Positions 18,169 to 29,598 of a DNA stretch of 40,030 bases are shown in pieces (within the stretch, counting starts at the first letter, position 1; every line of letters starts with the position of its first letter). The notes below the pieces were generated by a model. It made no database searches. It worked only from the letters and a program-made list of their open reading frames with translations, and was not told the DNA's origin. Location: IMG/VR virus record IMGVR_UViG_3300032241_001617, positions 1 through 40,030 of that record. One strand, 5' to 3'. The DNA is from a virus. Made by a program: the position numbers and the translations under genes.

Positions 18169-18188
18169 TGTGAATAACTTGTGGATAA
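18169..18188 (-). promoter_or_regulatory. Two tandem DnaA-box consensus sites
   Basis: On the minus strand the sequences TTATCCACA (18188-18180) and TTATTCACA (18177-18169) both match the E. coli DnaA-box consensus TTWTNCACA, in the same direction and 11 bp apart, about one helix turn. They fill the small gap between the connector stop and the next ATG, right behind a TTGACA at 18195-18190. They may bind host DnaA to control late transcription, or be part of a second origin. Confidence 0.6.
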
Positions 18189-23462: not shown

Positions 23463-23634
23463 GTGCTCAAACCCCGGCCCTACCCGTGGGTTTCACTCGG
23501 TAAGGCCGGGGGAAGGTCGTGTACCCTCTGGCTTGGTAAGGAAACTCAGATGATTTGAGATTCTTTGTCAAGCGACTATTTGCACTTGCTTAGTCCACCC
23601 TCGAGGACATTGTGGACATAAACTATCTACAATC
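23463..23634 (+). promoter_or_regulatory. Leader region before the replication gene
   Basis: No gene is seen. It holds an 8-bp perfect inverted repeat CCCCGGCC/GGCCGGGG (23472-23479 with 23504-23511) around a 24-base loop without a T-tail, so probably an RNA or DNA structure rather than a terminator. Near the 3' end GTCCAC (23593-23598) and GTGGAC (23612-23617) form an inverted pair of the iteron core found inside the next gene. A promoter is expected but no convincing -35/-10 pair is seen. Confidence 0.4.
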
Positions 23635-24333
23635 ATGCAAACTGACGGCTACACTAAACTCCACGCTTCCATATTAACCTCAACAATCTGGCTCGAGTCT
23701 GACCATGTGCGGATCGTTTGGATTACGCTACTTGCTTTGGCGAACAAGGAGGGTGTAGTGCAAGGCTCTGTGCCAGGACTTGCAAGCGTGGCTCGAGTGC
23801 CTGTCGATAAGGCTCGAGAGGCGATTACACGGCTTTTGGATCCAGACCCCGATTCCAGGTCAAAAACAGAGGATGGCCGACGCCTTGAAGCAATCGAAGG
23901 GGGATGGCGCCTAATCAACTTCGATTTTTACAGAAAACTTCACAGTGAAGAGCAGCGAAGGGAATATAAGCGCCTATGGATGGCCGAAAAGCGCAAAGAG
24001 TCCACAGCTGTCCACAAAAGTCCACATGTGTCCAAAGTGGACAATGTTGATACAAGCATAAGCAAGAAGCAGAATACAGAAGCAGAAACACAAACAGATG
24101 AATCATGGCTCGCTTCGCTCGCCTCCGACCCGGCTAACGCCGGGGTCGATGTGGCGAGAGAGGCTGACAAGGCTCGTTTCTGGTGCTCGAACAATCGGCG
24201 CAAGTTCACGCGAAAGATGTTTGTCAATTGGCTACTGAGGGCAGACAGGACAATCAGCGGAATGGCGAAGGACACAACCGTCAGTTGGCAAAGGGCGGTC
24301 GTGACCGCCGAAGAACACGCGAAAGGATTTTGA
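23635..24333 (+). CDS. Phage replication initiator (O-like)
   Basis: 232 residues. The N-terminal 115 residues match the winged-helix replisome-organiser type common in phages: YTKLHASILTSTIW, HVRIVWITLLALANKEGVV, SVPGLASVARV, then ARE-x-x-x-x-LLDPDPDSRS and the basic helix RREYKRLWMAEKRK. Residues 120-160 are a polar linker whose DNA forms the iteron array, followed by a helical C-terminus (NRRKFTRKMFVNWLLRADR) that may bind the helicase loader. The lambda O gene has the same arrangement of iterons in its middle. Followed at 2 bases by the methyltransferase gene, with a DnaC-like loader after that. Confidence 0.75.
   Translation: MQTDGYTKLHASILTSTIWLESDHVRIVWITLLALANKEGVVQGSVPGLASVARVPVDKAREAITRLLDPDPDSRSKTEDGRRLEAIEGGWRLINFDFYRKLHSEEQRREYKRLWMAEKRKESTAVHKSPHVSKVDNVDTSISKKQNTEAETQTDESWLASLASDPANAGVDVAREADKARFWCSNNRRKFTRKMFVNWLLRADRTISGMAKDTTVSWQRAVVTAEEHAKGF
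23999..24046 (+). promoter_or_regulatory. Iteron array, candidate replication origin core
   Basis: TCCACA at 24001, 24011 and 24021 and TCCAAA at 24031 recur at an exact 10-bp period in the same direction, each preceded by GT or GTG-like bases, and are followed by one inverted copy TGGACA at 24038-24043. The units resemble weak DnaA boxes or initiator sites. The array lies inside the initiator gene. Confidence 0.65.
24047..24110 (+). other. A-rich stretch next to the iterons, candidate unwinding element
   Basis: After the iterons the coding strand is strongly purine- and A-rich (repeats of AAGCA, AGAAGCAGAA, AAACACAAACAG). In lambda a similar A-rich stretch beside the iterons melts first. 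The composition contrasts with the GC-rich neighbourhood. Confidence 0.45.
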
Positions 24334-24335
24334 CC

Positions 24336-25028
24336 ATGAAGCCCTACTATCAAGACGACGCGGTGACGATTTATCACGCTAACGCTATTGATTGGCTGGC
24401 TGAGTTACCGCGCTGCGCAATCGCCTTTGCGCTTACCCTCACAGACCCTCCATACGGGATCAATGGGGGTAGGGGCGGCACATCCCGAGAGCGAAACCGT
24501 GGTGGTTACGTGGGGGCATTTACCGCCGAAATGGACACGCCACTATATATCGAGTCGATGGTGGTTCCTATCGTTAAGGCATCCATTGAGCGGTCGACGG
24601 CCAGTATTGTCACCCCAGGGAATAAAAACTTTTGCCTGTACCCGCAACCCGAGTCCTTTGGATGCCTGTGGCAACCTTCAGGTTCAGGAGCGCAGCATTG
24701 GGGGTGGTGCGATTCTCAGCCCATTTTCTATTACGGACGATCCCCTTTGGCTGGCATCGAATTGTCTAAGTGTTCCTTCGAGAACCGCGAGCATGACGAG
24801 TGTGACAACGGACACCCGTGCCCGAAGCCCTATAAGATTTGGCTCAAATTGCTGTCAAAGGGGCTTGGCGACCGGCCGGGCCCGGTGTTTGACCCCTTCA
24901 TGGGCAGCGGCACAACTCTCCGCGCCGCAAAAGACCTTGGCCGCAAGGCCATTGGCATCGAAATGGAGGAACGCTACTGCGAGATTGCTGCCAAGCGCAT
25001 GGCGCAGGAAGTGTTTAATTTCAAATAA
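24336..25028 (+). CDS. Orphan DNA methyltransferase (N4/N6, beta-type order)
   Basis: 230 residues. The start at 24336 follows a good AAAGGA site seven bases upstream. TDPPYG at 36-41 is catalytic motif IV, and FDPFMGSGTT at 185-194 is the SAM-binding motif I, followed by GRKAIGIEMEERYCEIA (motifs II-III). Motif IV before motif I is the beta order. The variable middle (70-165) would hold the target recognition part. There is no restriction enzyme nearby, so it probably modifies the phage DNA to escape host restriction or marks the origin. It lies between the initiator and helicase-loader genes. Confidence 0.88.
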   Translation: MKPYYQDDAVTIYHANAIDWLAELPRCAIAFALTLTDPPYGINGGRGGTSRERNRGGYVGAFTAEMDTPLYIESMVVPIVKASIERSTASIVTPGNKNFCLYPQPESFGCLWQPSGSGAQHWGWCDSQPIFYYGRSPLAGIELSKCSFENREHDECDNGHPCPKPYKIWLKLLSKGLGDRPGPVFDPFMGSGTTLRAAKDLGRKAIGIEMEERYCEIAAKRMAQEVFNFK

Positions 25029-25029
25029 C

Positions 25030-25824
25030 ATGAACACCGAACCCGAAATTCCGTTTGAAGCGTTGGAACCCGAGCCAGCATGGGAGTCAGTAGGCAACCG
25101 CTATTGCCCCGAGCCGGTCGCAATGGACTCCCTTGTGGCCGAAATGAAGGCTAGCCCGATGCTCACAGGCATTGCGGCCCCTGACCCTGACCTGCACCCC
25201 TACGAGGGCAAATGCAGGCAATGCGGCATAGAGCTGCATCCCGATTGGATTCAGCTTGAACGGTGCGAAGGCTGGTTTCCGGTCAATATCCACGAAGAGT
25301 GCAAGCCCGCCTACTACGCTTGCACAGGCGTTGCGGCGATCCAGGCCGAGCAATGGCAAAAGATTTGCCCGCCCGAGTTTCGGTCGCCGTGGGACGACAA
25401 GAAGGGCAATGCCGGGCTGCTGAAAAAGGTGCTGAGCTACGACCACAAGCAGGGCAAAGGGCTGCTGATTCACGGGACGAGCGGTGCAGGCAAGACGAGG
25501 GCGGCGTGGCAGCTTGTGCGGCAGATCATGGAGCAGGGGACGGCGGTCACGTTTGTCGAGTCGATTGACCTGCCTGACGAGAACGCCCGCGACATGATCC
25601 ATTTCCCTGTCTTGGTGATTGACGACCTTGGCAACGACAAGATGCAGGCGACAAAAGAAGCCCTTGTACTCAAGATCCTGCGGTCGCGGTTCCAATGGCG
25701 GCGGCCCACGATTATCACGACGCAGTTCAATGGGACAAAGCTCGCGGAGAGGTTCAGCGACGGCAACACGGCGCAGGCGGTCATTCGCCGGCTGCGTGAG
25801 TTCTGCGATGGTGTCGCCGCTTGA
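25030..25824 (+). CDS. DnaC-like helicase loader ATPase with N-terminal zinc site
   Basis: 264 residues. Residues 55-95 have a Cys/His cluster (C62, C65, C79, H88, C91) that probably binds zinc, as in DnaC-like phage loaders. The AAA+ core has Walker A GTSGAGKT at 149-156, Walker B LVIDDLGND at 195-203, TIITTQFNG as sensor I region at 227-235 and an arginine-rich end (VIRRLREFC at 251-259). It would load the host replicative helicase at the phage origin, in partnership with the O-like initiator. It begins one base after the methyltransferase stop. Confidence 0.82.
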   Translation: MNTEPEIPFEALEPEPAWESVGNRYCPEPVAMDSLVAEMKASPMLTGIAAPDPDLHPYEGKCRQCGIELHPDWIQLERCEGWFPVNIHEECKPAYYACTGVAAIQAEQWQKICPPEFRSPWDDKKGNAGLLKKVLSYDHKQGKGLLIHGTSGAGKTRAAWQLVRQIMEQGTAVTFVESIDLPDENARDMIHFPVLVIDDLGNDKMQATKEALVLKILRSRFQWRRPTIITTQFNGTKLAERFSDGNTAQAVIRRLREFCDGVAA

Positions 25825-28739: not shown

Positions 28740-29212
28740 CCACCGACCCAACCACCCCTAGCATGAGCACCTACCTAGACGAACTCTCAGCCAACATTCC
28801 GCTCAACACAGAGCGTTCGTGGCGGTCAATGGCCGAGGAAGCCTGCGCCGAAGTCGATTCGCTGCGAGCCCGTCTCGCCGCAACCGAAGCCGACGCCAAA
28901 GCCGCGAAGGAGGAAAACGAACGGTTAAACACGGCGCACATCAAGTTTCCTGCCATTCAGAAAAGCGCGGAGTTGCTCCAAGCTGAAAACCGATTTCTCC
29001 GCAAGTGTCTAGATACGGAGGGCAAAGCTGGACTGGCGACCGCGCTAGAATCCGCGAAGGAACGCGAGGAGGGGTTAACGAAGGCGTTGGGAGACTTGCT
29101 CGACGAGCAAAACGGTGTGCGGCTTTTCACCCGCAAAAGCAAAAAAGAATATCTGGCGGCAGTCGAAGCCGCCCGCACAGCCATCGTCGCCGCACGAAAG
29201 GCCGCGCAGTGA
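28736..29212 (+). CDS. Coiled-coil early protein, 158 aa
   Basis: ATGA overlap with the exonuclease gene. A long Ala/Glu/Leu-rich helix covers about residues 35-135 (EEACAEVDSLRARLAATEAD, ALESAKEREEGLTKALG), then a basic helical end. Probably an oligomeric structural or adaptor protein. No enzyme motif. Confidence 0.65.
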   Translation: MTTDPTTPSMSTYLDELSANIPLNTERSWRSMAEEACAEVDSLRARLAATEADAKAAKEENERLNTAHIKFPAIQKSAELLQAENRFLRKCLDTEGKAGLATALESAKEREEGLTKALGDLLDEQNGVRLFTRKSKKEYLAAVEAARTAIVAARKAAQ

Positions 29213-29598
29213 CCGACGCCGACCTAGAAAAACGCCTCGCGGAGATTGAAGGGTGGACTGCGACTCCGAACATGGGCGCAGCTGTAGGTTTCCTGCTTCG
29301 CTCGCCTAAAGGCGAAACAGATTGGTGCACCATTTATGGCACAAGGGAACAAGCGTTGTCCCGAGCTTGTGAGTACCTGACCGACGCCAACGCGGTGCTG
29401 CGGGTTTTGGAAAAATGGCCCCACGGGTTCGAGTGGGGCAAGTATCAGTCGGGCGTCGCCGCAAAGGGCGAGGAGTACTACTGCATCCTTTCAGCAACAG
29501 GAGCGCGTGACGGGAAGTTCCACAGGGGAAAAGGGCCAACTTTGTGCCGCGCCGCCTGCCTCGCCATCGTCAACGCGCAGGAGGGGAAGCAAGCCTAA
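29209..29598 (+). CDS. Phage ABA-sandwich-like protein, 129 aa
   Basis: A GTG overlaps the previous stop. Its layout (LEKRLAEIEGW start, PHGFEWGKYQSG, GEEYYCILSATG, then a C-terminal helix RAACLAIVNAQ) fits the small phage ABA-sandwich family, which is widespread in early regions and has no known biochemical role. Assignment is by pattern only. Confidence 0.5.
   Translation: MTDADLEKRLAEIEGWTATPNMGAAVGFLLRSPKGETDWCTIYGTREQALSRACEYLTDANAVLRVLEKWPHGFEWGKYQSGVAAKGEEYYCILSATGARDGKFHRGKGPTLCRAACLAIVNAQEGKQA

Follow-up and report, generated by a model that had tools for sequence, protein, structure and literature searches.

Our analysis of a 40,030-base IMG/VR virus record, analysed at its full length and referred to here as the window, points to a phage replication origin that is very probably embedded in its own initiator gene, in the manner of lambda ori and SPP1 oriL. 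The anatomy of the region, the helical phasing of its repeats, the selection acting on it as DNA, the covariation of its core sequences and the linkage between its adjoining tract and the initiator are demonstrated by the data presented below. Binding, melting, loading and firing are inferred, there being no replication data. The layout has not been described in the literature that we searched, in which subscription papers may have been missed.

The iteron array of the window (24000–24036, + strand) consists of three GTCCACA units, starting at 24000, 24010 and 24020, and one variant GTCCAAA starting at 24030, set at an exact 10-bp period and sharing the phasing found family-wide. Immediately after the fourth unit there is an inverted core (24037–24043, − strand; GTGGACA in + strand letters), which makes GTCCA-AAG-TGGAC with that unit. 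Directly 3′ of the array lies the 60-mer with the highest A content on the + strand (24043–24102), and within it an A/purine-rich tract of six-base period (24052–24100, + strand), for which TRF reported a 6-bp period at 24054–24098 and which has its counterpart in the family. Its units are a degenerate ACAAGC ATAAGC followed by GCAGAA, ACAGAA, GCAGAA, ACACAA and ACAGAT, and one step between units is 7 bp long. On account of this step, and of having three exact cores beside one variant, the window is somewhat irregular within its family. Upstream, the cores GTCCAC (23593–23598) and TGTGGACA (23611–23618) face each other before the initiator start codon. The initial annotation had claimed four TCCACA-type units at an exact 10-bp period, followed by an inverted copy and an A-rich stretch. 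All of this held, with the fourth unit being TCCAAA, not TCCACA, and the A-rich stretch being the six-base-period tract. It had also claimed two opposed cores flanking the gene start; the opposed pair was confirmed, and both lie upstream of the start codon.

GTCCACA was the only exact 7-mer in the window with three copies at lag 10, and none was found at lags 8, 9 or 11–15. No 7-mer occurred three times at lag 10 in any of 300 order-2 Markov windows, and synonymous recoding of codons 119–138 never gave four GTCCAMA in 20,000 attempts (the maximum was three, in 8 recodings). The array is thus not accounted for by chance or by coding. Since GTCCACA as a single motif was not enriched in the whole window (6 found vs 4.8 expected), the signal resides in phased clustering. 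GC skew, proposed earlier as a marker through a switch at about 24.0 kb, was uninformative: in the window the skew follows gene orientation, with no switch beyond it, and the cumulative curve turns several times.

The initiator gene (23635–24333, + strand) encodes a protein of 232 aa, P0001. An AF2 model built on 51 family sequences predicted a winged helix (about residues 11–95), a long basic helix (96–126), a disordered linker (about 127–156) and C-terminal helices (157–231), with pLDDT >90 across most of the N-terminal domain and <50 in the linker. The array occupies codons about 122–137, across the last part of the basic helix and into the linker, and the tract codons about 140–156, in the linker. 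P0001 matched PHROG_186, a group of DnaD-like loaders (E=1.7e-5), yet only 2 of 51 family members did so. Members of the family match PHROGs labelled replication-initiation, O-like, primosomal and replisome-organizer. A profile search gave no match to Pfam DnaD, and a Foldseek search of PDB with the initiator returned generic winged helices alone, none below E 0.001. In BFVD, the Foldseek matches of P0001 included DUF1376 and replisome-organizer phage proteins that share its fold, and it is possible that the linkers of such proteins conceal similar origins.

Downstream of the initiator lie an N4/N6 DNA methylase gene (24336–25028, + strand; PF01555, E=2.9e-19), which is outside the origin, and a DnaC-like helicase loader gene (25030–25824, + strand; phrog_50, E=7.6e-15; PF01695). 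The initial claim that a DnaC-like loader follows the initiator held with a slight difference in gene order, the methylase gene lying between. The loader is DnaC-like in the window and in four relatives (L208, L224, L263 and L284); other neighbours are a DnaB-like helicase in L218 and L248 and a primase/helicase in L225. A similar DNA methylase was also seen downstream of the initiator in L278. Elsewhere in the window, ARAGORN called a − strand tRNA-Glu at 29147–29233, across reading frames of the + strand, and this call is possibly a false positive.

A direct search with P0001 gave no match in IMG/VR or in isolated phages, and the family was reached through a scan for the DNA array and then through intermediate homologues. 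A scan of IMG/VR with three TCCACA spaced 10 bp apart yielded 41 loci, five of which (four distinct) encode homologues of the window initiator at or beside the array. Control scans recovered no family initiator, either in at least 120 loci with 11-bp steps or in 50 loci with the reversed hexamer ACACCT (5 of them common to the real scan). In total, 319 relatives were found in IMG/VR, and 88 loci were studied. A further eight relatives lie in bacterial and archaeal genome bins labelled Verrucomicrobia, Phycisphaerales, Polyangiaceae, Thermomonas, Acidobacteria and others. Searching four family members against 50,697 isolated phage records revealed no relative, while lambda O, used as a positive control, gave 438 matches in the same records. 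Against isolated phages, BLASTN of the window origin region gave weak matches to the A-rich tract alone, and BLASTN of a GTAACG-type origin found no match. The loci were all drawn from metagenomes or from genome bins and records. Because no relative was found among isolated phages, no characterised member anchors the inference of an origin.

The relatives share a common plan, in which 2–10 short cores spaced 10/11 bp apart are followed by an (RCAGAN)n tract in the disordered linker of the initiator. In 69 non-redundant loci we counted how often 5-mers matched exactly within the linker DNA, and compared the counts with shuffles that keep protein and codon content. Observed matches far exceeded shuffled ones at lag 10 (387 vs 39; z about 40), lag 11 (416 vs 50; z about 40), lag 21 (645 vs 170; z about 30) and lag 6 (814 vs 214; z about 28), the z values for these lags ranging from 28 to 41. 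Peaks stood at lags 10, 11, 21, 31/32 and 42 and at multiples of 6, and the signal was not seen in the first or last 250 bp of the same genes or in downstream DNA. Ten or 11 bp made up 84% of core intervals, often in strict alternation, and alternating steps of this kind correspond to the 10.5-bp helical repeat, that is, one core per turn. The tract most often starts exactly 21 bp from the start of the last core (33 loci).

It might be argued that the protein linker is simply of low complexity and that the repeats follow from it, with selection acting on the peptide. The region does encode a disordered linker, and in 43 of 44 cases the tract is read in one frame, as Ala-Glu-like repeats. For the latter reason, reading-frame usage was set aside as a weak proof of selection on DNA, and codon bias and non-coding copies were used instead. 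In the tract, GCA accounts for 99% of Ala codons vs 24% elsewhere in the same genes, and ACA for 95% of Thr codons vs 19%, an extreme usage that a peptide constraint does not explain. Steps of 10/11 bp cannot yield one peptide repeat per unit, and the signal is lost in protein-preserving shuffles. In three loci (L211, L233 and L016), cores and tract lie flipped and outside the coding region, and cores recur upstream of the gene. The shuffles and the non-coding copies refute the peptide explanation, which can be regarded as all but excluded, and the linker pattern is selected as DNA, not as peptide. The comparison of relatives at the DNA and protein levels, proposed with the initial annotation, gave the same answer: the 10/11-bp phasing is kept while cores and linker peptides change, so that the outcome that would have refuted the claim (the same linker without conserved spacing) was absent. 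The claim of an origin inside the initiator gene, with a DNA pattern selected for itself, was supported by every comparative test, binding and firing remaining inferred.

The tract and the initiator are linked. When 2.9 million contigs were scanned with the tract as the only query, 27 loci emerged, and in 26 of them a family initiator lies immediately before the tract with cores between; the 27th locus is truncated 36 bp ahead of the tract. Some of these contigs overlap the IMG/VR family set; the search itself was independent. In five bacterial genomes reached via the loci, every exact tract match was at a family initiator, one of which was previously unknown. This new member (L332/L329; G003 contig 300) is a second initiator in one Verrucomicrobia bin, and its frame is broken while its cores and tract are kept. 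Variants of the tract were also observed: in the linkers of L284 and L286, it is present as the reverse complement, encoding SVSVSVS, and still lies 3′ of the cores; in those of L297 and L300, other six-base repeats (CCAACA-like and CCAGCT-like) follow the cores at the usual place of the tract. From its position and conservation, we infer that the tract of the window serves as an unwinding element or a single-strand capture site, its melting being untested.

Another explanation is that the element is a junction for recombination or module exchange and that its phased repeats arose by slippage expansion. The C-terminal parts do vary between family members (as seen in the PHROG list), and one exchange of helix and array was observed. 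However, slippage yields a single unit length rather than an alternation of 10 and 11 bp with a fixed 21-bp offset, and the upstream arrays have the same core as the linker. We consider this explanation very unlikely.

The cores fall into classes, namely GTAACG (34 loci), GTCCC (6), GTCACG (5), GTCAAC (4), GTCCAC (4; that of the window) and GTCTAC (3). In 37 of 61 loci, the linker's own core also occurs within 120 bp upstream of the same gene, compared with 13.3 on permutation (maximum 23 in 2000), and without the dominant class the recurrence among minor classes was 18 of 22 vs 6.3 (maximum 14 in 5000). About 40% of loci lack such an upstream copy. Where upstream copies share a strand, the distance between them is mostly 10 or 19 bp. 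Given that the core of a relative's own linker tends to recur ahead of its initiator gene, the upstream pair in the window is likely to be a set of initiator sites for autoregulation and/or for the origin complex, although no binding data are available.

These upstream copies raise the possibility that the cores are operator sites only, the initiator-like protein being a transcription factor for its own operon and the origin lying elsewhere. Cores adjoin the start codon in most relatives, and a winged-helix fold is found in many regulators. On the other hand, this view leaves unexplained the long array within the coding region, the 21-bp register to the tract and the helicase and loader neighbours, and the PHROG labels of the family are those of replication. 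A purely operator role is thus unlikely, and an origin embedded in the initiator gene remains our preferred reading.

Comparison of two relatives, L220 and L234, bears on which part of the initiator reads the cores. Their proteins are identical at residues 1–102 and near-identical from the tract onward, and the flanking DNA is about 90% alike. The end of the basic helix (REAEADRKRRYREQRERN in L220 vs EKNRDRQRRFREKDERN in L234) differs together with the array, which has seven GTCCC in the former and ten GTAACG in the latter. Given the identity over residues 1–102, the winged helix is not what distinguishes the two cores. Among 51 sequences, the columns most associated with core class were mostly 107–121, in the basic helix; this association is confounded by ancestry, and the row named L234 in it is the L220 protein (identical first 60 residues). 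From the helix and array swap and the residue/core association, it is probable that the basic helix reads the cores, there being no binding data. In the window, the inferred iteron-recognition helix is the C-terminal part of the basic helix (about residues 103–126; 23941–24012, + strand), which overlaps the start of the array. Both L220 and L234 are metagenome assemblies, and an assembly chimera cannot be excluded; it is unlikely, because two crossovers within about 170 bp would be needed between phages otherwise about 10% apart.

The initial annotation had also named host DnaA as a possible binder to test, and the cores might be host DnaA boxes, with the origin opened by host DnaA. The established consensus of the DnaA box is TTATCCACA, and TCCACA equals its 3′ part. 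However, no box within one mismatch is present in the array (tested with TTWTNCACA), and the commonest core of the relatives is GTAACG, others being GTCCC or GTCACG; in most relatives the cores are unlike a DnaA box. Moreover, the cores were exchanged together with an initiator helix. Binding by host DnaA is therefore unlikely, and opening of the origin by it through these cores very unlikely. Apart from the array, two exact DnaA-box-like sites (TTATTCACA and TTATCCACA) were noticed at 18169–18188 of the window (− strand), 11 bp apart in a short gap between two structural-side genes.

The origin proposed here can be compared with known systems. As in lambda ori, repeats of initiator-binding type lie inside the initiator gene (O in lambda), followed by an A/T-rich region, with a loader gene (P) downstream (PMC7466680). 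In contrast to lambda, which has four 18-bp iterons at steps of 20, 24 and 23 bp, the window family has cores of about 6–7 bp at 10/11 bp and a six-base tract, and the loader of the window is DnaC-like. Homology to lambda O was not detectable (hhalign probability 0.3%, E 0.23), a few members matching O-like PHROGs. The description of the origin as lambda-style, given earlier, thus holds for layout only. As anatomical criteria for an initiator-embedded origin we took an initiator gene that contains repeats of initiator-site type under selection at the DNA level, an adjacent unwinding-type region in a fixed position, and a helicase loader or helicase gene nearby. Each was fulfilled, the second by a tract that is mostly 21 bp off and whose melting is inferred, as are binding of the sites by the encoded protein and the start of replication there. 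The criterion for lambda-type iterons, 18 bp at 20–24-bp steps, was not met in the family. SPP1 oriL, in gene 38 of this Bacillus phage, likewise has direct repeats within the initiator gene and an AT-rich unwinding element, and its loader and helicase are phage-encoded (gp38, gp39, gp40; PMC6316719). The window family, by contrast, was not found in isolated phages, and its likeness to SPP1 is drawn without sequence-level comparison. The DnaA-trios or DnaD recognition element of oriC is also a short-period single-strand motif adjoining double-strand initiator sites (PMC10201434). The likeness is in idea only, since trios recur every 3 nt and the tract every 6, and the family cores are not DnaA boxes. 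On the strand complementary to the tract, a TnnT motif of the DnaD type was considered and rejected, since by inspection it is present in TTCTGC units and not in ATCTGT or CTCTGC units.

In the mechanism that we propose, the initiator would bind its short cores, which recur once per helical turn and so face the same side of the DNA, mainly via the basic helix, whose codons directly precede the array, as inferred from the helix and array swap and the residue/core association. The bound row would adjoin, in fixed register, the six-base-period A/purine-rich tract, which may open or be held single-stranded, an inference from its position and conservation. The C-terminal part of the initiator, together with the nearby DnaC-like loader, may then place the helicase; this step is inferred from the neighbouring genes and by analogy with lambda O/P and SPP1 gp38/gp39, and in some relatives the gene nearby encodes a DnaB-like helicase or a primase/helicase. 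The upstream core copies probably couple initiator expression to origin occupancy.

A bolder reading is that this is an undescribed type of origin of uncultivated phages, in which the basic helix reads one core per turn, the helix codons and the cores form one exchangeable specificity cassette, and the six-nucleotide tract two turns away provides a strand-specific single-strand register analogous to, yet distinct from, DnaA-trios. Taken as one joint claim, we offer it tentatively, and the balance of our judgement leans slightly against it.

In summary, phased cores followed by a six-base tract provide a signature by which, with no experiment, replication origins can be located in the sequences of hundreds of uncultivated phages, and a compact system for the question of how a row of initiators opens DNA. 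The natural swap between L220 and L234 directs attention to the region of the initiator that recognises its sites. It also suggests a possible reason for the placement of origins inside initiator genes, in that an adjacent reader and site may change specificity in one recombination event.
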